From Actinomycetota bacterium (lineage in GTDB: Bacteria > Actinomycetota > Thermoleophilia > Gaiellales > Gaiellaceae): a stretch of DNA of 36,467 nucleotides. This document shows, piece after piece, positions 6,592-23,613 of this stretch (positions within the stretch are counted from its first letter, which is position 1; every line of letters begins with the position of its first letter). The notes under the pieces were generated by a model that was given only the letters and a program-made list of their open reading frames with translations, was not told the origin of the DNA and ran no database searches. The position numbers and the translations under genes were made by a program. The stretch is taken from the NCBI GenBank assembly GCA_013696805.1, contig JACCXX010000019.1, positions 1-36,467 on the forward strand, given 5' to 3'.

Positions 6592-7146
6592 ATGTCCGCC
6601 TCCGCGGCGCCTGCGCCGCTCGCAGCTCTTCCAAACGCGCTCACCCTGCTGCGGCTACTCCTCATTCCACTGTTCGTCCTGCTGCTCGTACCGGCCGATG
6701 ACGGGCACAGCGTGGCAGCAGCGCTGGTCTTTGCCGTCGCTGGGGTCAGCGACTACCTCGACGGGTGGCTCGCGCGACGCTTGAACGTCCAGTCCGAGTT
6801 CGGCCGCGTGGCCGACCCGCTCGCCGACCGCCTGATGATCGACGCAGCAGTTGTGCTGCTCGTCCTCGTCCATGACCGGCTCCCATGGGCCGCTCTCGCG
6901 ATTATCTTCGCCCGGGACATTTTGCTCATCGCCGGGTACAGGTTGCTCATGCCTCGCGGTTACGAGCTCAACGTGAACTTCCTCGGGAAGTCAGCGACGT
7001 GGGTCCTCTACTGCGCGCTCTTCCTGATCCTTCTCACCGAGTCGAGCGCGGACTGGCCACTCTGGATCTTCTGGTTCGGCGTCGGCCTTGCGCTCGCGGC
7101 CGGCGGCCAGTACCTCCTGACCGCGTTGCGCGGAAGCCGCGCGTGA
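6592..7146 (+). CDS. pgsA: CDP-alcohol phosphatidyltransferase (phosphatidylglycerophosphate synthase-like)
   Basis: The 184-aa membrane enzyme carries the family signature [28 protein letters not shown] (residues ~47-74), i.e. DG-x2-AR-x8-G-x3-D-x3-D. Several hydrophobic helices surround it. It transfers a phosphatidyl group from CDP-diacylglycerol to an alcohol, most likely glycerol-3-phosphate for phosphatidylglycerol synthesis; related actinobacterial paralogues use inositol phosphate. It opens the cluster leading to garA and ftsR, paralleling the pgsA2-garA-Rv1828 neighbourhood in mycobacteria. A TATCCT box ends 6 nt before the ATG with no ribosome binding site. The stop overlaps the next start (GTGA). 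Confidence 0.88.
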
Positions 7147-9668
7147 AAGCCGTCGTCATGGCCGGCGGCGAGGGCACGCGCCTCCGCCCGCTGACCTCGA
7201 ACCAGCCGAAGCCGATGGTCACCATCGTCGGCAAGCCCTGCATGGAGCACATCGTCGAGCTCCTCCGAGAGCATGGCTTCGAGGACGTGATCGTGACGGT
7301 CGCGTTTCTCCCGCAGGCCATCCGCTCGTACTTTGGAGACGGATCGACCCTGGGGCTCAACATGGAGTACTCCGTCGAGGAGACGCCTCTCGGCACGGCC
7401 GGCTCCGTCGGCCTGGCCGCGGACAAGCTCGACGACACCTTCCTGGTCATCTCGGGCGACGCGCTCTGCGACTTCGACCTGACGAAGCTCGTCGAATTCC
7501 ACCAGGAGCGTGGCGCGGCGGTGACCATCGGCCTGAAGTCGGTCGAGAACCCGCTCGAGTTCGGAATCGTCGTCACCGATGAGGACGGACGGGTCGAGCG
7601 TTTCCTGGAGAAGCCCTCGTGGAGCCAGGTCTTTTCGGACACGATCAATACCGGCGTCTACGTCGTCGAGCCCGAGGTGTTGCGCCACATCCCGACCAAC
7701 CAGCCGTACGATTTCTCCAAGGAGCTCTTTCCCCTCCTGCTCGAGATGGGCCGGCCGCTTTACGGGCTGCCGATGGAGGGCTACTGGCAGGACATCGGCA
7801 ACCTCGACCAGTACCGGCAGGCCAACTTCGATGCGCTCGAGGAAAGGGTCCGCCTGAATGTCCCCGGCGTTCGTCTGCGGGGCAACATCTGGGTAGGGGA
7901 GAGCGTCGACGTCGACGACATCGACCGACTCGAGGGCCCGGCGTTCCTCGGGAACTACTGTCGCGTCGCGCGCGAGGCGACCGTCGGCCCGTATGCCGTC
8001 CTCGGCACGAACGTCACGCTTCGAGAACGCGCCCGGACTTCGCGATCCGTGATCGAGGCCTCCACGCACATCGGCCGCGGCGCGCTCGTCGAGGGCGCCA
8101 TCGTCGGGCGCTCCTGTGACATCCGGGCCCACGCGCGCCTGCATGAGGGCGTAGCGCTCGGAGACGAAGTCACGATCGGTGCGGAGAGCGTCCTCATGCC
8201 CGGTGTGCGCGTCTACCCGCACAAGGAGGTGGACACCGGCACGCAGATCTTCGAGAGCCTGATCTGGGAGTCTCGCGCCTCCTCCAGCCTCTTCGACAAG
8301 GACGGCGTCTCCGGGCTGGTGAACGTCGATCTCACGCCGGAGGTCGTCACCCGGCTCGCGGTCGCGTTCGGCACTGCCCTGCCGCGCGGGGCGCACGTCG
8401 TCGCCAGCCGGGAAGCCGCCGCTGCATGCCGGCTCGTGGAGCGGGCCATGATCGCCGGCCTCAACTCGACGGGGGTGAACGTGGCCGACCTGCGCGTGCT
8501 GCCGAGCGCCGTGGGGCGCCATCTGCTGAAGAAGCACGACTACGACGCGGGCTTCCACGTCGGCCTCAGCTCGCACGACCAGGAGATCGTGATCATCCGC
8601 TTCTTCGAGCAACCCGGGATCCAGCTGACGCCGGCGATGCAGAAGGAGGTCGAAAAGCATTTCTCCCGTCAGGAGCTGCGACGTGCAGCGGCCGCTGACG
8701 TCGGGACGGTCGACTACCCGGTGCGGGCTCGCGAGAGCTACGCCGAGGACCTCTTGGCCACCCTCGACGTCGAGGCCATTCGCCGGCGCGGGCATCGCAT
8801 CGTCGTCGACTACGGCTACTCGGCGGCCTCGCTCGTGCTCCCACTCGTGCTCGGTCCGTTGGGGGTCGAGGCCGTCTCCGCGCATGCGTTCTCCCCTGCT
8901 CAGGCTGGCAACGGCGACGCGACCCTGCGCAGCCTGATCGGCCAGACGAAGAAGCTCGTCGCCGCGGTCGGCGCGGACTTCGGCGCCGTCGTCGACCGCT
9001 CGGCGGAGCGGCTCTACCTGATCGACGAGAAGGGCCGCGAGATCCCCGTCGAGCAGACGCTCCTCCTTTTTTTGCGCCTTCTCGGCTCGGACGGCCGGCG
9101 CGGAAAGCTCGCTTTCCCGGTCACCGTGACCAGCGAGGTTGACCGCATCGTGAAGGCGAGCGGCCTGGAGATCATCCGAACTCCGGCCTCGCATAGCGAG
9201 CTCACCAAAGCTGCCGCCGCCGACGGCGTGATCTTCGCTGCGGCGGTCGGCGGCGGGTATGTGTTTCCCGATTTCCTGCCGGCCTACGACGCGACGGCAA
9301 GCCTGTGCAAGCTTCTCGAGCTCCTGGCGCCGGTCAACGATCCGCTCTCGTCTCTGGTCGCCGACCTTCCGGTGTCGACCCTCGTGCACCGGCAGCTGCC
9401 GTGCCCGTGGTCGCAGAAGGGGCTGGTGATGCGCGTGCTGACAGAGCGTCTCAAAGACCGAGACCTGGATCTCCTCGACGGCATCAAGGTCAACGACCGT
9501 CGCGGGTGGGCGCAGCTTTTGCCCGACCCCGACGAGCCCCTGATCCACATCTACGCAGAAGGCTCGAGCGACGAGGCGTCGAACGAACTGGAGGACGAGC
9601 TCCGTGCCCTCGTCGAGGACGTCCTACAGCGCGAGGTGGGGGAGACTGAGGCTCCAATCTCAAGCTGA
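7143..9668 (+). CDS. sugar-nucleotidyltransferase / degenerate phosphomannomutase fusion
   Basis: The real start is the GTG at 7143, overlapping the pgsA stop, not the upstream ORF start. The 841-aa protein has three parts. Residues 1-~235 are a nucleotidyltransferase ([20 protein letters not shown]), as in mannose-1-phosphate guanylyltransferases. Residues ~245-375 are left-handed beta-helix hexapeptide repeats. Residues ~380-830 are laid out like phosphohexomutase domains I-IV. In the mutase part TASHNP reads LSSHDQ (Ser477 kept), the metal loop DGDADR reads DRSAER (618-623), and GEQSGH is absent. The nucleotidyltransferase should supply GDP-mannose or a related donor for glycans, while the mutase half is probably inactive or regulatory. 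This fusion recurs in actinobacteria. It is co-transcribed with pgsA. Confidence 0.88.
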
Positions 9669-14104: not shown

Positions 14105-15154
14105 ATGACTGTCGAGATTGATCACGTTCTAGCTGCCGAGGACGTCCGCCAGTTCATCGACACTGCCGAGCAACACGGATCGGTGCGCGTCAGCGAGCTC
14201 ACAGACCTGTTCGAGACGCACGAGCTGGCACCGCTCGAGGCCGAGGCCCTCCAGCGGGAGCTCGAGCAGCGCGGAATCGAGATCGTCGAAGGAGAGAAGG
14301 AGCCGCAGCCTCCCGCTCCGCAGCCTCAGGTTTACGAGACGACGACCGATGCGCTGCAGCTCTTCCTGCGCGAGGCCGGCCGGCATGCTCTGCTGACCGC
14401 AGCCCAGGAGGTCGAGCTCGCGAAGAAGATCGAACGCGGGGACATGCAGGCCAAGCAACGGATGATCCAGTCGAACCTCCGCCTCGTCGTTTCGATCGCC
14501 AAGAACTATCGCAACCAGGGCCTCCCGTTCCTCGACCTCATCCAAGAAGGGACTCTTGGGCTCATCCGCGCCGTCGAGAAGTTCGACTGGCGCCGCGGCT
14601 TCAAGTTCTCGACCTACGCCACCTGGTGGATCCGCCAGGCCGTTGCCCGTGCGCTGGCCGACAAGGCGCGCACGATCCGGATGCCTGTCCACATCGTCGA
14701 GCGCCTGCAAAAGATGAACAAGGCCGAGCGGATTCTGTGGACTCAGCTTGGCCGCGAGCCGACGCTCGCAGAGATCGCCGAAGAGGCCAGCCTTCCGGTC
14801 GACCAGGCGCGCGAGGTGCGCGCGGCAGCCCGTGCTTCGACCAGCCTCGACCAGCCGGTCGGCGAGCAGGAGGACGCGGTCTTCGGCGACTTCGTGGCCG
14901 GCGACGGACCGTCACCCGAGGACGAGGTCGAGACCTCGCTTCGAAGCCAGGCGCTGATTCGCGGGCTGGCCGCTCTCTCCGAGCGCGAGCGCAAGGTGCT
15001 CGCCCTTCGCTATGGGCTGGGCGAGGCTGAGCCGAAGACCCTGGAGGAAATCGGTCGGCGCCTCGGGCTGACGCGAGAGCGCGTCCGCCAGATCGAGGTT
15101 CACGCCCTTAGACGCCTGTCAAAGCTGCGCGAGATGGAGTCTGTTGCCGGCTGA
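14105..15154 (+). CDS. RNA polymerase sigma factor RpoD-like, with region 1.1
   Basis: The 349-aa sigma-70 family protein has an N-terminal ~60 residues ([48 protein letters not shown]) resembling sigma region 1.1, the DNA mimic of primary sigma factors. Region 1.2 ([34 protein letters not shown]) follows, then regions 2.1-2.4 ([58 protein letters not shown]), region 3, and 4.2 ([31 protein letters not shown]). It directs RNA polymerase to -10/-35 promoters. Region 1.1 argues that it is the primary or a primary-like sigma. A DnaA-box region precedes it. Its last 47 nt overlap the 3' end of the opposite PHP gene. Confidence 0.92.
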
Positions 15155-15845
15155 GGCCGAGCGCGGACCCGTCGAAGAAGCCTGGCGCCCTCTCCCCTAG
15201 CCTTTCGCGAACCCGGTCGTAGGCGGCGTCGAGATACGGCGGCCGTGTCGTGCGGTGCCCGTCGGAGGCCACGAGAGAGGCCTGTCGAGTCTCGAGGAAC
15301 CGCCAGGCGAGCTCCTCCGGGCCCGGCCCGTGAAGGCCGAGGACGCTCGTAGCGTTCACCTGCAGCAGCCAGCCACGCGCGGACAGCTCTTCGGCGATCG
15401 CAGGGTCGTCCAGCACTGTCTCGGTGCGCTCTGGGTGAGCAATGACGGGCCGGAGGCCGGAGGCCTCGATGTGCTCTCCCATTCGCAGGAGGACGTTGAT
15501 GCCACCTGTGAACGGCACCTCGACGAGAACACAGCCAGTTCCTTCGAGCTCGTACCGGGAGATGTCCTCACGAAGCAGGCGCGAGGTAGGCGTTAGCTCG
15601 AAGCCGAGCCGCAGCTCGAGGCCAGCGTGTGGCTGCATCTCGTCGTAGGCCCGGCGGACGGCCACCTCACGCTCGGCAGTGAGCGGCAGGTGAGGCCAAA
15701 CGTGCGGAGTGGCGAAAAGAATCGCCGTCCCGCGCTTGGCAGCCTCCCGGCAGAGCTCGATCCCCTGCCGCAATGACTTAGCGCCATCGTCACCGGACGG
15801 GATGACGTGCGAATGGCAGTCGACGAAAAAGGCGGAATTCCTCAC
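15108..15845 (-). CDS. CpsB/YwqE-type PHP-domain tyrosine phosphatase
   Basis: The GTG at 15845 gives 245 aa starting [25 protein letters not shown]; the ORF-track start at 15989 lies inside the neighbouring sigma gene. PHP metal motifs are visible: [37 protein letters not shown] and ASDGH. The family (CpsB, Wzb-like in Gram-positives) dephosphorylates tyrosine kinases that control capsule or exopolysaccharide export. A manganese-dependent phosphatase role is inferred; no BY-kinase gene is nearby. It lies 34 nt downstream of the second sigma gene on the same strand and may be co-transcribed with it. It overlaps the first sigma gene tail to tail by 47 nt. Confidence 0.82.
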
Positions 15846-15879
15846 TAGTCCAGCGTAGCGACAGGTGCTCGCAGAGGAC

Positions 15880-16842
15880 CTACCCCTCGTCCAGGTACAG
15901 CTGCAAGCCGGGCGCGACGTTGCGCAGCTCGCGCAGAGCGCGGGCCTCCAGCTGGCGAACGCGCTCGCGGGTGATGCCGAGGCCGACACCGACCTGCTCG
16001 AGTGTGTGGGGCGTATGCCCGTCGAGACCGAAGCGCAGGGCGAGCACCCGGCGCATGCGCGGGTTGAGCCCCTCGAGCGCGCCGGCGAGCTCCTTCGAGC
16101 GCAGACCCTTGGCGGTCACGGCGTCCGGGCGATCGGACTTCGTGTCCTCGATCAGGTCGCCGTAGAGGCTCTCGCCGTCACCGACCGGGGTCTCGAGACT
16201 GACCGGGTCCTCGACGAGGTCGAGGAGCTCCTGAACACGCTCTGGCGTAAAGCCGCTCTCCTTCGCGATCTCCGTGACGAGCGGATCGCGATTCAACTTC
16301 TGGGTCAGGATGCGCCGCGCACGCAAGACTTTTCGCGCCGCGTCGGCGACGTGGACGGGCAGCCTGATCGTGCGACCCTGGTCGGCGAGAGCACGGGTCA
16401 CCGCCTGGCGAATCCACCAGGTGGCGTAGGTCGAAAGCTTGAAGCCGAGCTTGTAGTCGAACTTCTCGACCGCTCGGATGAGACCGAGGTTTCCCTCCTG
16501 GATCAGGTCGAGGAGAGGAACGCCCGCTCTTGTGTAGTTCCGCGTGATCGACATCACGAGGCGCAGATTCGATTCGATCAGCTTCCGCTTCGCTGCCTCG
16601 TCGCCTTCGTCCTTGCGTCTGGCGAGCTCACGCTCCTCCACTGGGGTGAGCAGGCGGCCGTCACCGATCTGGCGCACGTAGAGCTTGAGTGGATCCTGGG
16701 TCACCGCGGCGACGGCCTTGTCAGGCGCGTCTTCTTTCTCCTCCACCTCCTCGGTGGGGTCGCCGAGCGCGCCGGAAATGACCTCGAGCTTGGGCTCGAA
16801 GTGATCGGGCTCGGGAGGTGGCTGGTGGAGCGGCCGCGCCAT
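15880..16842 (-). CDS. second RpoD-like sigma factor (group 1/2)
   Basis: The 320-aa protein lacks region 1.1 but has an acidic N-terminal ~50 residues. Region 1.2 ([33 protein letters not shown]), region 2 ([58 protein letters not shown]), region 3, and 4.2 ([28 protein letters not shown]) follow. Regions 2.4 and 4.2 nearly match those of the sigma at 14105, so promoter specificity should overlap. It is probably a group-2 (HrdB/SigB-like) alternative or second principal sigma. Three consecutive inverted repeats lie 24-75 nt upstream of the ATG. The PHP phosphatase gene follows. Confidence 0.92.
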
Positions 16843-17127: not shown

Positions 17128-17922
17128 ATGTGTGGAATCGCCGGATATAGCCTGGATCGCTCGAGCCGCGTCTCGCGGACTCTGGCTGCTCAGGCGCTCC
17201 TGGCGGCGATCGCCGAGCGTGGCGCCGATGCTGTCGGCTATGCGCACCGGGGAATTGACGGAGCCGTTGTCGTCCACAAGCAGCGCACCGGGGCGAGCGC
17301 CTTTCTCGACCGCATCTCAATGCCGTGGGAGACCACGCAGGCGCTCATCCACGTGCGCGACTACACCAAAGGCCATCCGACGATCGGGGCGAACAACCAT
17401 CCCGTTCGCCACGGAAGCGTCGTGGGAGTCCACAACGGCATCATCCTGAACGACGAGGAGATCTTCGCGCGGCACAGGTTCGAACGAGCCGCCCCTCGCA
17501 TGACCGTGGACACCGAGGCGATCTTGGCGGTTGCGGAGGAGTCGGACTCGAGCGCCGAGGCGCTCGAGGAGCTTTGTGGCTCCATGGCAACGGCCTGGCT
17601 CGATGAGCGCCGACCCGACACGCTCTTCGTAGCGCGCGGCGTCGGCCGGCCCATCTGGGTTGGAACCGGCTCACGTGAGACCTTCTTCGCGTCGACGAAG
17701 CACGCGCTCGAGGTGCTGGAGAAGTACCTGGGCCTTCGACTTCGGAAGCGCGAGGTCGGAGAGGGCACGTTGCTTGCCCTCGAGCACGGGAAGCTTGTTC
17801 GCACCGACCGGTTCCAGCCTAATCGCGAGTTCGAGGAGACCGCTCTCCCCGCTGTGCGCGCCCCGCAGGAGCGCGTCGCGTGCCTGCGCCGTCTAGCCGC
17901 GATTGCGGCTGCGCTTGGCTAG
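17128..17922 (+). CDS. stand-alone class II glutamine amidotransferase domain
   Basis: The 264-aa protein begins MCGIAGYSL, giving an N-terminal nucleophile Cys2 after Met removal. Other Ntn-glutaminase elements are present: Arg77 in HVRDYTKG, GANNHPV, Asn103-Gly104 in VHNGIILN and Asp128 in TVDTEAI. This is the PurF/GlmS-type glutaminase fold, releasing ammonia from glutamine. The synthetase or isomerase half normally fused to it is absent, and the protein ends ~20 residues after the domain. It must either act with a separate partner or be a plain glutaminase. Its 3' end overlaps the convergent repeat-protein gene by 30 nt. Function is unassigned. Confidence 0.82.
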   Translation: MCGIAGYSLDRSSRVSRTLAAQALLAAIAERGADAVGYAHRGIDGAVVVHKQRTGASAFLDRISMPWETTQALIHVRDYTKGHPTIGANNHPVRHGSVVGVHNGIILNDEEIFARHRFERAAPRMTVDTEAILAVAEESDSSAEALEELCGSMATAWLDERRPDTLFVARGVGRPIWVGTGSRETFFASTKHALEVLEKYLGLRLRKREVGEGTLLALEHGKLVRTDRFQPNREFEETALPAVRAPQERVACLRRLAAIAAALG

Positions 17923-18600
17923 CCGCCCTTCAGGTGACACCTTCACACCCTGCTCGCCCAGCCGCTCCGACACCAGGTACTGAAACGTCGACCATGCCCC
18001 GGGACCGGGCTCGAGCATCCGGTAGACCTGCCACTCGGTAAGCATGGTCCCGTCTCCCCCACGCCGGGCCTCCCCCCAGTCGGCGAACTTCGGCAGCCGG
18101 CCAAGCCTCTTTGCCAACCCGGCGCCCTGTTCGATCGCGCGCTCGAGGCGCTCTTCGCCGACCGGCACGTCGAAGCCGGCCTCACGTAGGGCCGCCGTCA
18201 ACGATCCGAACGTGTGCCAGTAGAGAGACTTGGAAGGCATCGAAGCGCGGTGCTCGTCGAGGTCGCGGGCCGTCGGCGTTCGTTTGAGCTCCTCGCCGAG
18301 CTCCCGTAGGAGCCGTACGAGGTCCTCCCGCGTAGCGAACCGGCGAGGGACGAGCCCTGCCTGGCGCTTGGCCTTGTTCCAGCTCCCGAAGTGCTGGATG
18401 ACGGTCTGCGGGTGCACCGTGGTCTGCGCGTCAGCCTCGAACTCGCGCATCGTCGGCGAACGGCCGAGCCGCTCGGCGCATTCCGCGAGCTGCTCGAGGA
18501 TCTGCTCGTCCGAGTAGCGGCGTCGAATTCCTGACTGGAACTCGGCTAAGCGCTCACGATCGATCTTTGCGAGGGCACGGTAGGCCCCCTTCCGGGGCAT
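17893..18600 (-). CDS. homing-endonuclease-associated-repeat DNA-binding protein
   Basis: The 235-aa protein has two clear copies of a ~55-residue helical repeat: ~29-83 (YSDEQILEQLAECAERLGRSPTMREFEADAQTTVHPQTVIQHFGSWNKAKRQAG) and ~88-143 (FATREDLVRLLRELGEELKRTPTARDLDEHRASMPSKSLYWHTFGSLTAALREAG). A third, divergent copy lies from ~148. This is the HNH/homing-endonuclease-associated repeat (a winged-helix-like DNA reader, often beside HNH nucleases). No HNH or other nuclease motif is present here, so it is probably a DNA-binding regulator or a domesticated relic. It is basic at both ends. A promoter with a 16-nt spacer lies directly upstream, leaving virtually no leader. Confidence 0.78.
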   Translation of the reverse strand: MPRKGAYRALAKIDRERLAEFQSGIRRRYSDEQILEQLAECAERLGRSPTMREFEADAQTTVHPQTVIQHFGSWNKAKRQAGLVPRRFATREDLVRLLRELGEELKRTPTARDLDEHRASMPSKSLYWHTFGSLTAALREAGFDVPVGEERLERAIEQGAGLAKRLGRLPKFADWGEARRGGDGTMLTEWQVYRMLEPGPGAWSTFQYLVSERLGEQGVKVSPEGRLAKRSRNRG

Positions 18601-18657: not shown

Positions 18658-21408
18658 CTATGAGGCTGCTGCGGCCAAGTCGAGCCGTGCCTGCTCGTCC
18701 GCCAGGATCTCCGGCGGCAGCACGCCCTCCAGAGCGTCCACGCAACGCGGGCAGAACTGTGTTCCCGCGGCCTTCTTGAGCTCGTCCATCGCCTCCAGCG
18801 CGGGTCGGGCCGCGCGGTAGATGCGGGTTGTCAGCATGGAGTCGAGCGCATCAGCGACGTGGATGATCCGTGCGCCGAGCGGGATCTCCTCCCCCTTCAG
18901 CGCATCTGGATAGCCGGTGCCGTCGAAGCGCTCGTGGTGATGGCGAATCGCAGGCACGGCGTCGTTCAAGAACCCGAGGCGGTCGATGATGCGTGCGCCC
19001 TCGTCCGAGTGGCGCTGCATGAGCGTCCATTCCTCTTCCGTCAACACGGCCGGCTTCAGCAGGATCGCGTCTGGAACGGCGAGCTTGCCGATGTCGTGGA
19101 ACAGAGCCGCGTGACCGAGGAGGTCGAGCTCGCCCCGCGAAAGCCCTAGCTTGCTGCCGATGGCCAGAGCGAGCTGCTGCACGCGGCGTGAATGGCCGGC
19201 AGTGTAGGCATCGCGCGCGTCGACCGTGGCCGAGAGGCTCTCCATGGCAGCCGTCGAGCGTTCCTTCAAGAGCTTGTTGGCGCGCTCGAGAGAGACATTC
19301 TGCGTCTGAATGGTTTCCGCTGCTTCTCGAAGCTTCTGGGCGCTCTTCTGCGTGTGCCGCAGGTATGTCTCCTGTGTCCTGCGCATCAGCAGGAGAGGCA
19401 CTGCGAAGACGGCGAGGGCGTAGAGACCCGCTGCGTGGTAGGCGATCGCCATGACGCCGCCGACGAAGCCGTAGACGACCCAGTGCGGCGCCAGCCAGGC
19501 AAAGCGTTCGTGCCAGGCGGCCCACCAGCGCTGGTGACCCTCCATGGCCATCGCCAGGCTCGTGAGACCCGTATTGACGGCGAAGTAGGTGAGGCCGGCT
19601 GCGAGGCCCGCAGCGGCGGTCACGAACTCACCGAGGGGCCCCTCGAAGCCCAGGGCAAAAACTCCTGCGGCCGCGAGCGAGGCTAGACAGAGCGAGCCGA
19701 TATTGAAGAGCACGTAGTGACCCGGGTAGCGTCGCGCGCTCCAGTGCACCGCTGCCGTAGTCACAGCCAGCGGTAGCGCAGCCCGAGGTCCGAAGAGGGC
19801 TGCTCCCGCTAGCGCGCCCACGGCGCTGACCGAGATCGAGCCGTCATCAACCTCGAGGGCCAGCGCCTCTCCAAGGCCGACGAGCACGACGAGCGCGACC
19901 AGGGCGAAAAAATGCTGGTTGCTTCCGAAAGCGAGCCCGAAGGCTCCCGCGCCGATGCCGACCGCCGTCACGAGTGAGACGACGGCTGCCAGTGGACGTG
20001 ATTGCAGGAAGCTCGGCCCGTGCACGACGTGCGCCCGCGGATGACGCCGCTCCTCGGGCGGAATCGCCTCGACGGCCGGGGGCAACGGAGTGGTGTGGTT
20101 ACCTGCCTGAGGTACCGCTACGAGCCGTGGCTTGCGGTCGACCGGGACCGCGAGGGGCTCCGAGCTCGCGTCGAGCACGCGGTTTCGGCCCTGGAGCTTG
20201 GCCCGGTAGACGGCAAGGTCTGCCTGGTGGATGAGCTCGTTGGCGTCTCCCCCGTCTCGCGGGAAAGTGGCGACGCCGAGCGAAATGGTCACGCGAATCG
20301 GCTGGCTTGACGTTTCGACGTCGATGGCGCGCGCGGCAACTGCCGCACGGATGCGCTCTGCGATCTCGAGCGCCTCCTCCGTGTCCGTCTCGGGAAGCAG
20401 GATGCTGAACTCCTCGCCACCGAACCGCGCCGGCACGTCGTAATGGCGCAGTTCCAGGCGGAAGGTCTCGGCGATCCCCTTGAGCACGGCGTCGCCGGCG
20501 AGGTGTCCATAGGAGTTGTTGATGTCACGGAGCAGGTCGAGGTCGGCCATGAGCAACGCGAAGGGTCGGTCGAAGCGACTCGCTCGCGCTATTTCCTCCG
20601 CCAGCGCGACGCCGAAGTGGCGCGCGTTGAAGAGCCCTGTCTTGGGATCGACCCGCGCCTCGGCTTTGAGTTGAGGCACGCTCAGCGACCGGTGGATGAG
20701 GAGCACCGGGGCGATCGCGAAGGGGATCAGCCACGGGTTGAGGTTCCAGAACGTCGCGAGGACGACACCGAGGGCGGCCAGCACGAGCTCCGTCGAGAGG
20801 CTGTGGAACGAGAAGAGCCCCGAGTCCTTGATCGAGTGCCCACGGGCCAGCATGAGCATCGGAGCGAGTAGCGCGTGGTTCAGTCCGACGAGCACGAGCG
20901 ACGCGGCGCAGCCGGCAAGGGCGAAGCGCAGCTCGCCGTTCGCGACCAGCTCGTCGCCGCGCAAAACGAGTCGCGCACTTCCCCACGCTGCAAGCGTCGC
21001 GAGGATGTAGTTCGAGATGTTGAAGGACTCGATATACCAAGCCGTTCGGTTCTTCAACCAGGCCGGGATGTGTTGAACGATCGCGACCAGCGCGACCAGC
21101 TCCGGCGGAAGCAGGAGGACGGCGGGGACGAGGAACACATTCGTCGCGTGGTACGACTGGTTCCTCGGCGTCTTGACGAGGAGCACCTGAGCCAGCGCCG
21201 TCGCCGTGGCGAGCAAGAGGAACGTCGCCCACAGACGCACGGGCTGCTGCTCGTGCTGGAGTCGACTCAGCACCGGGATAGCCACGGCAGCAGCCGCCAG
21301 GGCGATCGCGATCAGGTACGCGCGAGCAGGCGTCGAGAGGCGGGTTTTTCTCCCGTCGCGCGACCTAGGCCCACGGCCGAGCGCAAGCTCACTCGGAATC
21401 GCGCTCAA
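18658..21408 (-). CDS. membrane-bound GGDEF / HD-GYP c-di-GMP enzyme with duplicated membrane module
   Basis: The 916-aa protein starts at a TTG with GAGG upstream. Its order is as follows. Seven hydrophobic helices span ~28-242. A GGDEF domain spans ~250-415, with DLDLLRDINNSYGHLAGD, the active-site loop GGEEF (330-334) and an intact inhibitory site R321HYD324 five residues before it. A linker and a second set of about seven helices (~470-677) follow, then a coiled coil (~680-720) and an HD-GYP domain (~722-900) with HDIGK (771-775) and HHERFDGTGYP (824-834). It should both make c-di-GMP from GTP and hydrolyse it. The two membrane blocks are similar in length and helix spacing, suggesting fusion of two related receptors. 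Signals and regulation are unknown. It ends 58 nt before the repeat-protein start. Confidence 0.93.
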   Translation of the reverse strand: MSAIPSELALGRGPRSRDGRKTRLSTPARAYLIAIALAAAAVAIPVLSRLQHEQQPVRLWATFLLLATATALAQVLLVKTPRNQSYHATNVFLVPAVLLLPPELVALVAIVQHIPAWLKNRTAWYIESFNISNYILATLAAWGSARLVLRGDELVANGELRFALAGCAASLVLVGLNHALLAPMLMLARGHSIKDSGLFSFHSLSTELVLAALGVVLATFWNLNPWLIPFAIAPVLLIHRSLSVPQLKAEARVDPKTGLFNARHFGVALAEEIARASRFDRPFALLMADLDLLRDINNSYGHLAGDAVLKGIAETFRLELRHYDVPARFGGEEFSILLPETDTEEALEIAERIRAAVAARAIDVETSSQPIRVTISLGVATFPRDGGDANELIHQADLAVYRAKLQGRNRVLDASSEPLAVPVDRKPRLVAVPQAGNHTTPLPPAVEAIPPEERRHPRAHVVHGPSFLQSRPLAAVVSLVTAVGIGAGAFGLAFGSNQHFFALVALVVLVGLGEALALEVDDGSISVSAVGALAGAALFGPRAALPLAVTTAAVHWSARRYPGHYVLFNIGSLCLASLAAAGVFALGFEGPLGEFVTAAAGLAAGLTYFAVNTGLTSLAMAMEGHQRWWAAWHERFAWLAPHWVVYGFVGGVMAIAYHAAGLYALAVFAVPLLLMRRTQETYLRHTQKSAQKLREAAETIQTQNVSLERANKLLKERSTAAMESLSATVDARDAYTAGHSRRVQQLALAIGSKLGLSRGELDLLGHAALFHDIGKLAVPDAILLKPAVLTEEEWTLMQRHSDEGARIIDRLGFLNDAVPAIRHHHERFDGTGYPDALKGEEIPLGARIIHVADALDSMLTTRIYRAARPALEAMDELKKAAGTQFCPRCVDALEGVLPPEILADEQARLDLAAAAS

Positions 21409-21587: not shown

Positions 21588-23429
21588 TTAAGGGAGTGCG
21601 GGTGGTGCCGGCGGTTCCAACAGGGCCGGGATGTCGAGGTCTGGGTCGGCGGCCGCAGCCGCCTCTCCTTCCGGAGTCAGGACGTAATCACCCGTCGGAG
21701 CTGCGACTTCGCCTTCGGCGTTGTCCTCGAAGCTGACATCAGCAGCCGCCAGGGCGTCGCTCCAGGTGACGTCGTGCCAGGTGACGTCACTCCAGGTCAC
21801 GTCACTCCAGGTCACGGACGACCAGGATGCGTCGCTCCAGGTGACGTCCGACCAGGAAGCCGAGTCCCAGGAAGCGTTCGCCTTGGCCACGTCCGACCAG
21901 CTCGCCGCGTCGAACACAGGCGCCTTGACGCCGGTCGCATCGGGCACGACGAACCGGTTCAGCGCCAGGTTCGGGTTGCCGGGCATGGTGACCACAGCGG
22001 ACCGAGAGGCGTTGACCTCGCCCACGCCGGCCGCGCCGGTCAGGCCTTCTTCGCGCACGAAGCGAGCACGCTGCATGAGAGCACCCTTCACCTGGTCAGG
22101 AGTCCAGTTCGGCTTCCTGGCCAGGATCTGAGCAGCCGCGCCCGCGACGATCGGAGCCGCGAACGACGTCCCCGAGAGCCGCATGTAGGTGGGAGCGACG
22201 ACGTTGTCGGGCTTCGCCAGCTTCAGCGTTCCATTCGCCGGCACCGGGCCGATCATGTAGCGGCCAGCCGCCGAGATCTCCGGCTTGCGGAAACCGTCGA
22301 GAGTGGAGCCGTAGGCCGACCAAGACGGAGCCTCGTGCTTCCTCGGGTTCGTTGAGCCCTCGAGGTCGATGGCGCCGACCGTGATCACGAAGGGGTCGTT
22401 GCCGGGTGCGTACGGAACGCCGCTCGGCCCATCGGTCCTGCCGTAGTTACCGGCAGCCACGACGACGACCACGTTGCTGAACCAAAGTTTCTCGACCGCC
22501 TTGTCCAGCGGATCCTTGGTGAAGTTGCTCGGCGTCGTCGAATGGAGCGAGAAGTTGACTACGCGGATGTTGTATTCCGTGCGGTTGTCAGAGATCCACT
22601 CGGCAGCCGCGATCACGTCGCTCGTCCGTGCCATTCCGCTGTCATCCATGACGTCGAGCGAGATGACATTCGCCTGAGGAGCGGAGCCGGCGTAATCGGG
22701 CGCGCTACCCGCTGCGATGCCAGCCACAAACGTTCCGTGCCCGCGGCCATCGCCCGCCGAGTTGTTCGGCAAGCTCGTCAGGGTCACGTCCCTGATGACG
22801 CGGGCACCCATGTCGAAGTCGGCCCGGTTCTTGTCGATGCCGGAGTCGACGATCGCAATCGTCGGCGTGTTCGCCGTCGTGATCTGTTCCTCCGACCAGA
22901 ACGGACGGACGCCCGACGCGGTCGGCCACAGCTGCTTCGAGCTCAGCACGGAGCCGGACAGCTCGACCTTCGAGTCGTGCGTGATCGTCAAGCCCGGAGT
23001 CTTCGCCATCGTCGAGATCTTCTTCGCCTTGACGGTCACGGCAACCGAGTTGATGAACTTGTACGAACCCGTGAGGCCTTCTCGATCGAGGCTGCTGTCC
23101 ATTCGGTCGGCGTGCCCGAACGCATTTTGAGCGTCGTTCACGCCCTCCGAGCTCTGAATAATCGCCTTGACCAGCTTATTCGGCTCGGTAATCGCCATGC
23201 CCTCGAGGTACGGATCAATGTAGCTCGCCGCCGGCGGCGGTTTCCCCTGGTTCTCCCCGGCACCTGCGAGCGGCACAGCGGTCGCAACCAGAACGAGCAT
23301 GAACGCAGCGAAGCCCCGTCCGCCCTTGCCCCAGAGGGCATTGGCGCGCGAGTCCCCGCCGCGGTTCCCCGTTCCCCACAAGGCACTCGACCGGCCCTGC
23401 CCGCCAGTGCCGCCAGTTTCTCTAGACAT
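21588..23429 (-). CDS. secreted S8 protease with N-terminal ALWG motifs and C-terminal WSDV pentad repeats
   Basis: I choose ATG 23429 because GAGGAG lies 5 nt upstream; the ORF-track start at 23522 would read through the leader. The 613-aa protein opens MSRETGGTGGQGRSSALWGTGNRGGDSRANALWGKGGRG, with the ALWGxGxRG motif twice. A hydrophobic signal (~40-57) follows, then a propeptide-like region and the subtilase domain: Asp195 (IVDSGID), His231 (GRGHGTFVAG), Asn328 (VAAGNYG) and Ser422 (LSGTSFAAP). Residues ~510-559 are ten five-residue units of the type (S/T)W(S/H)D(V/A). An acidic Pro-rich tail ends LLEPPAPPALP. It should act outside the cell. The pentads could bind the wall, be a processing substrate or form a beta structure. 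The role is unknown. It diverges from murT. Confidence 0.92.
   Translation of the reverse strand: MSRETGGTGGQGRSSALWGTGNRGGDSRANALWGKGGRGFAAFMLVLVATAVPLAGAGENQGKPPPAASYIDPYLEGMAITEPNKLVKAIIQSSEGVNDAQNAFGHADRMDSSLDREGLTGSYKFINSVAVTVKAKKISTMAKTPGLTITHDSKVELSGSVLSSKQLWPTASGVRPFWSEEQITTANTPTIAIVDSGIDKNRADFDMGARVIRDVTLTSLPNNSAGDGRGHGTFVAGIAAGSAPDYAGSAPQANVISLDVMDDSGMARTSDVIAAAEWISDNRTEYNIRVVNFSLHSTTPSNFTKDPLDKAVEKLWFSNVVVVVAAGNYGRTDGPSGVPYAPGNDPFVITVGAIDLEGSTNPRKHEAPSWSAYGSTLDGFRKPEISAAGRYMIGPVPANGTLKLAKPDNVVAPTYMRLSGTSFAAPIVAGAAAQILARKPNWTPDQVKGALMQRARFVREEGLTGAAGVGEVNASRSAVVTMPGNPNLALNRFVVPDATGVKAPVFDAASWSDVAKANASWDSASWSDVTWSDASWSSVTWSDVTWSDVTWHDVTWSDALAAADVSFEDNAEGEVAAPTGDYVLTPEGEAAAAADPDLDIPALLEPPAPPALP
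21753..21902 (-). repeat. ten tandem 15-nt units coding W-containing pentapeptides
   Basis: The units read SWSDV AKANA SWDSA SWSDV TWSDA SWSSV TWSDV TWSDV TWHDV TWSDA. Three to four units near 21775-21815 are almost identical in DNA (cactccaggtcacgt), showing recent duplication or conversion. The outer units have diverged. Confidence 0.9.
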
Positions 23430-23469
23430 GCCACTCCTCATCCGCGCCGCAACGCGCAAATCCGCAGTA

Positions 23470-23487
23470 CCCAAATCAGAATTTGGG
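23470..23487 (-). promoter_or_regulatory. hairpin in the protease 5' leader
   Basis: CCCAAAT-caga-ATTTGGG is a perfect 7-bp stem about 41 nt upstream of the protease ATG, in the 184-nt gap to the divergent murT. It lies between CCCCTGAAAGGG-like and GCGCG-rich pairing segments. The c-di-GMP riboswitch signatures (GCAAACC, GACGCAAAGCC) are absent. It may be a structured leader or an operator. Confidence 0.4.
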
Positions 23488-23613
23488 CTGACCGTAGGTT
23501 CGCGGGAGTAGCGCACCATCACCCTTTCAGGGGAGAGCCGACCTGAAAACGAGCAAAGATCACTCGACAGAGGGATCTGGCGCTCTCCCTCAATTTCGGG
23601 ATACGCTCAGGCC

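Follow-up and report, generated by a model that had tools for sequence, protein, structure and literature searches.

A predicted c-di-GMP turnover enzyme with a homologous MASE9-like membrane block before each of its GGDEF and HD-GYP domains, conserved in Thermoleophilia and Anaerolineae

A gene in the stretch of DNA analyzed here (the window, 36,467 nucleotides from a metagenome-assembled actinobacterium) encodes a GGDEF domain and an HD-GYP domain, each preceded by its own membrane block, and sequence comparison shows that the two blocks are homologous. This architecture is conserved in Thermoleophilia, being widespread among those of Gaiellales type, and in Anaerolineae, and it is not peculiar to the genome of the window. 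The protein is probably bifunctional in c-di-GMP turnover, with a separate copy of a MASE9-like receptor driving each of the two catalytic domains. Coordinates are given in Table 1.

The start codon of the fusion gene has the sequence GAGG five bases to its 5' side. About 45 genomes of the window's family share the gene as a single open reading frame, which is therefore not a product of chance; the full-length gene in relatives is likewise open and 51%–77% identical. No hydrophobic segment was detected by hydropathy in the linker between the GGDEF domain and the second membrane block. The named near relatives are Thermoleophilia/Gaiellaceae bins, and the isolate names of many point to soil or peat, a habitat read from the names. 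Elsewhere, the window holds a 927-aa open reading frame with nucleotidyl transferase and phosphoglucomutase/phosphomannomutase parts (6885–9668, + strand) and two convergent sigma-70 family genes within 3 kb (14105–15154, + strand; 15880–16842, − strand), with a CpsB/CapC-like gene between them (15108–15989, − strand).

Table 1. Features of the fusion gene and its neighbors in the window (aa, amino acids)
Feature	Position	Strand	Remarks
Fusion gene: MASE9-like block, GGDEF, MASE9-like block, HD-GYP	18658–21408	−	916 aa, TTG start
N-terminal membrane block, residues 24–245	20674–21339	−	Seven helices, helix 3 broken at PP101–102; MASE9 match in some orthologues
GGDEF diguanylate cyclase domain, residues 246–415	20164–20673	−	PF00990 at 252–410, E 3e-44
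GGEEF active-site loop, residues 330–334	20407–20421	−	
RxxD inhibitory (I-) site RHYD, residues 321–324	20437–20448	−	Five residues before GGEEF
Cytoplasmic linker, disordered, residues 416–470	19999–20163	−	pLDDT <50 over 419–465; hydropathy
Second membrane block, residues 466–680	19369–20013	−	Homologous to first; MASE9 match in orthologues
Continuous helix 663–732, last membrane helix into HD-GYP	19213–19422	−	AlphaFold2; likely signalling helix
HD-GYP c-di-GMP phosphodiesterase domain, residues 720–900	18709–19251	−	Pfam HD_5/HD 726–885, E 2.3e-35
HDIGK metal-binding motif, residues 771–775	19084–19098	−	
HHERFDGTGYP motif, residues 824–834	18907–18939	−	
S8 subtilase, probably secreted, Trp pentapeptide tail	21588–23522	−	Upstream of fusion, same strand; conserved partner in two phyla
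Subtilase tail, tryptophan every five residues, W552 to W587, WSDVT-type repeats	21762–21899	−	
HNH_repeat (homing-endonuclease-associated repeat) gene	17893–18600	−	Directly downstream of fusion

Profiles of the first (N) and second (M) membrane blocks were built from 30 orthologues of Gaiellales alone and compared over residues 24–245 and 466–680. The hhalign probability was 98.0 (global) and 96.7 (local) with a score of 70.1, and a repeat gave 96.8. With Anaerolineae sequences added, the probability was 99.5% (E 2.7e-22, score 151, 221 columns). When an HMM of either block was searched against the genome, the other block was the only second match (E about 1.5e-4 to 1.9e-4). The motif pairs that had suggested a shared layout in an earlier, sequence-only reading of this DNA (AIVQHIPAW/TTAAVHW, FNIS/FNIG, VGLNH/AVNTG, and VLLIHR/LLLMRR) are all aligned with each other in the profile comparison. 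Aligned identity between the blocks is only about 20%, as might be expected of two seven-helix domains without common ancestry that resemble each other by chance through hydrophobicity. The controls make that extremely improbable: the maximum score against 70.1 was 18.5 in 40 column shuffles and 22.9 in 40 shuffles that were confined to windows of ten columns and so preserved the hydropathy layout, and the reversed profile scored 14.1. Other HD-GYP proteins of these bacteria gave scores of 11–18 for their membrane blocks; this control set consists of the proteins labeled x, which carry the HD-GYP domains closest to those of the Gaiellales fusions and have membrane blocks unrelated to MASE9. 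Circular rotations of the M profile are no real control because collinear pieces still match.

The family closest to both blocks is MASE9 (PF20972, curated cut-off 24.3 bits), which agrees with them in region and length. It matches the second block in 25 of 26 orthologues (best E 7.3e-9), with several above the cut-off at up to 34 bits, and the first block in four of 26 (best E 4.2e-5), one of which reaches 26.3 bits. For the window protein itself, the match to the second block is weak and below the cut-off (19.4 bits, E 0.017), and the first block has no MASE9 match. Homology to MASE9 is thus well supported at the sequence level and both blocks are treated as divergent MASE9-like sensors; formal membership is not claimed for the blocks of the window, which lie below the curated cut-off. 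As a further difference, the fusion has two copies per protein, the second of them internal. The name MASE9 was not found in the literature searched.

Both catalytic domains appear to be intact. The window protein has the GGDEF domain match with GG[DE]EF and the metal/GTP residues, and the HD-GYP domain has the metal and catalytic residues of HD..K and HHExxDGxGYP. Across an alignment of 56 fusions from two phyla, D289, D291, N297, D306, G330, G331, E333, and K404 of GGDEF and H771, D772, K775, H800, H824, H825, E826, G832, and Y833 of HD-GYP are invariant. The RxxD site keeps its arginine in 48 and its aspartate in 51 of the 56. The sequence-only reading had called both active sites and the RxxD feedback site intact, and had named unrelated membrane blocks or inactive catalytic domains as results that would overturn it. 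The blocks proved homologous, and the call of intact sites holds at the level of sequence, with catalytic residues essentially invariant and the feedback site present in the window protein and kept in most of the others. The usual lysine of the FK motif in GGDEF, which we take to correspond to K332 of PleD, is replaced by arginine in all 56 fusions. That the residues are conserved together in two phyla speaks for selection on both domains, and c-di-GMP synthesis and hydrolysis are both predicted for the fusion.

AlphaFold2 gives seven helices in each block, in keeping with the earlier estimate of about seven, the third helix of the first block being broken at PP. The separate model of the second block (pLDDT 92, pTM 0.88) has helices at residues 471–494, 500–517, 527–559, 563–585, 593–624, 637–660, and 662–691, in agreement with the full-length model, which has a pTM of 0.50 and is not informative on domain arrangement. 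In the models, continuous helices run from both blocks into the catalytic domains (225–252 into GGDEF and 663–732 into HD-GYP). The second block must cross the membrane an even number of times, because the enzymes on either side of it, GGDEF and HD-GYP, are both cytoplasmic. A topology with seven strict crossings was rejected, as it would place the two enzymes on opposite sides of the membrane. We infer that the second helix of this block does not cross; the charge pattern fits, with a positive N-terminus and first two loops that are both negative in most sequences.

Foldseek ranked ECF S-components, which have a six-helix core, highest by probability (FolT, 5d0y, 0.98 with TM 0.65 by target; TmRibU, 0.77), with E-values that are not significant (best 0.17). 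PF07155 matches four of 63 M blocks (best 5.5e-6), a weak profile support confined to the M family, and sequence profile comparison of the N block gave no direct S-component match. A fold shared between MASE9 and S-components is therefore a lead from modeling, and the resemblance, though faint, suggests that the blocks may be small-molecule receptors. By structure prediction, 5TMR receptor domains share the S-component fold (Partipilo and Slotboom, PMC11109136). The 5TMR-LYT receptors described there resemble the blocks in having seven helices and a fold like ECF S-components, some of them with GGDEF or EAL, but they are another sequence family, and MASE and HD-GYP are both absent from that paper. 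In addition, 5TMR domains start extracellularly, but the second block of the fusion has to start in the cytoplasm.

Fusions were found in 26 of 298 Anaerolineae genomes (about 9%, counting partial and contig-broken cases), the first to be spotted being on an Anaerolineales chromosome (L144). One genome of another Thermoleophilia family has the fusion (L179). In another actinobacterial family (L244), the second block and both enzymes were matched and the first block was not. The fusion is rare in Actinomycetota outside Thermoleophilia. Several loci carry fusions interrupted by a frame or stop, through sequencing error or decay (L064/L139, L094/L140, and L142).

The sequence-only reading had proposed a search for separately encoded halves, and these exist as stand-alone MASE9-GGDEF (for example L053, L055, L178, L180, L181, and L200) and MASE9-HD-GYP proteins (L075, L076, L078, L182, L183, and L197–L199). 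L195/L196 (G487) and L065 (G018) were rejected as stand-alone halves because they end at contig edges; they are treated as broken fusions, and the block, GGDEF, and HD-GYP trees still label them stand-alone. At L051 (G031:C31, 2273–6696), a subtilase, a MASE9-HD-GYP, and a MASE9-GGDEF are three adjacent genes, in this order. Both sensor blocks of that locus are of N type, so its HD-GYP gene has a cyclase-type sensor. In G002 (L085), the second half of the fusion is absent and the HNH_repeat gene directly follows GGDEF. In G044 (L052) and G289 (L187), the first half stands alone next to the same subtilase type. Weak GGDEF matches beside MASE9-HD-GYP genes at L056, L060, and L062 have no visible membrane block.

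Two known arrangements are close to the fusion. The window's genome also encodes a single-sensor MASE9-GGDEF-HD-GYP tandem of 596 aa (L084, G000:C153) with the same three domain families. This tandem has one sensor N-terminal to both enzymes and forms a clade separate from the fusions in all three trees, whereas in the fusion a membrane block lies between the catalytic domains. Streptomyces HdgA and HdgB (6TM-HD-GYP) are, like the fusion, membrane-sensor HD-GYP proteins in Actinomycetota, but they have no GGDEF half (PMC6205966).

The block in each half of the fusion is most similar to that of stand-alone proteins carrying the same enzyme, at scores of 422 and 327 versus 125 and 133. In the block tree, N-type blocks, comprising those of fusions, stand-alone GGDEF proteins, and the L051 HD-GYP sensor, form one clade (SH-aLRT 100) to the exclusion of M-type blocks. 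The separation of N from M blocks is thus older than the split between actinobacterial and Anaerolineae fusions. Monophyly of the fusions themselves is rejected by AU tests for M blocks (p 1e-6; 0.024 once L179 is left out) and for HD-GYP (p 1e-9; 0.001 once L179 is left out). The trees come from rapid searches and contain long branches, and the p-values presuppose that the groups were specified in advance. Non-monophyly implies repeated joining, or repeated splitting with domain exchange. Resolution in the GGDEF tree is too low for dating the fusion. The HD-GYP domain of the Gaiellales fusions groups with HD-GYP proteins that carry an unrelated membrane sensor. Five loci (L054, L067, L087, L189, and L190) have an HD-GYP sister to that of the Gaiellales fusions and a sensor unrelated to MASE9, a sensor swap.

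The sequence-only reading had the fusion arise from a membrane cyclase and a membrane phosphodiesterase descended from one receptor. Its common descent stands, given homologous blocks and the existence of separate halves; the joining does not follow from the trees, which do not separate it from duplication and splitting. Internal duplication of one MASE9 block within a single gene, with separate halves as later splits, would account for the stand-alone MASE9-GGDEF proteins that nest among fusion N blocks and for the solitary first half that G002 keeps in the same gene neighborhood. However, the blocks of some stand-alone MASE9-HD-GYP proteins fall outside the M blocks of fusions, and the fusions fail to form one clade, although later splitting could give the same result. 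We regard duplication as a serious but somewhat unlikely explanation.

The subtilase gene upstream adjoins the fusion in 15 of 27 Gaiellales loci with enough flank (among L001–L030) and, for Anaerolineae, in 13 of 20, the usual distance being 0–230 bp; duplicate loci were removed from these counts by hand, and the subtilase is not adjacent in every fusion locus. It was beside none of 20 other HD-GYP genes and none of five single-sensor tandems. Partner subtilases are 32%–45% identical across phyla and have tails with tryptophan about every five residues, in Anaerolineae too. The window's second subtilase (795–2480) is not recognizably close to them. Among the 298 Anaerolineae genomes, this subtilase type, defined by >420 bits at a natural gap in scores, is present in 22 of 26 with the fusion versus 2 of 272 without it. 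Leaving out nine genomes used to build the profile, the count is 13 of 17 versus 2 of 272, with shared ancestry ignored. A stand-alone MASE9-HD-GYP gene (L078, G052:C236, 1625–3307) has the same subtilase type 4 bp upstream. In Anaerolineae, the partner subtilase is often multicopy. Eight Anaerolineae genomes (G429, G312, G351, G396, G442, G383, G525, and G559) have several Trp-tailed subtilases close together per contig, some of them away from the fusion. The HNH_repeat gene is next to the fusion in most Gaiellales loci (56%–75% identity) and not in Anaerolineae.

As an enzyme with one receptor per activity, the protein would work as follows. The state of the first block would pass through helix 225–252 to a dimeric GGDEF domain, which would make c-di-GMP under RxxD feedback, and the state of the second block would pass through the long helix to HD-GYP, which would hydrolyze it. 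One polypeptide with two related inputs could thus act as a local push-pull c-di-GMP switch. The suggestion of the sequence-only reading that the opposing activities could respond to two ligands or positions is a conjecture. Given the S-component-like blocks, the likely inputs would be small molecules with binding sites inside the membrane domain, and the fusion may be functionally tied to the subtilase encoded just upstream. Counting against this reading, the halves are separable, the second half being absent from L085 and HD-GYP from L203.

Other mechanisms need to be weighed against it. Only one activity may matter, with GGDEF binding GTP or c-di-GMP to regulate the HD-GYP phosphodiesterase, or the reverse. 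The invariant lysine-to-arginine change in the GGDEF motif would fit, as would the precedent of tandem GGDEF/PDE proteins, both GGDEF-EAL and GGDEF-HD-GYP, in which one domain is typically inactive (PMC6205966). We consider this unlikely because all other catalytic positions in the two domains show little or no variation among the 56 proteins from two phyla and because the N half persists alone as MASE9-GGDEF, which suggests a cyclase activity of its own. The blocks might instead be anchors or dimerization modules that bring the two enzymes together at one site on the membrane. We know of no ligand for MASE9, and the case for receptors comes from homology together with a weak match in fold. 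However, the blocks keep conserved polar motifs (FN, N-H, and W-x3-R) over large distances, and the modeled helices lead without a break into the catalytic domains, so a purely structural role seems rather improbable. A more specific scheme would join the two genes into a two-phylum module of a Trp-tailed secreted subtilase and a two-receptor c-di-GMP switch, in which MASE9 receptors of S-component fold read a product or the tail of the protease and so set synthesis versus hydrolysis. This last scheme is speculative and, in our estimation, quite doubtful.

The components are known, and the one-receptor-per-enzyme arrangement and the subtilase partner are apparently undescribed; no link between the subtilase and the fusion was found in the literature searched, with most subscription journals outside it. 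It has long been asked how proteins with opposing c-di-GMP activities choose between them. A receptor copy of its own for each activity would make the question directly testable with chimeras, single-half genes, and natural half-losses at the same locus. The fusion also offers leads to the signal, in a partner gene conserved in Actinomycetota and Chloroflexota and in a possible tie of MASE9 to vitamin-binding S-components.
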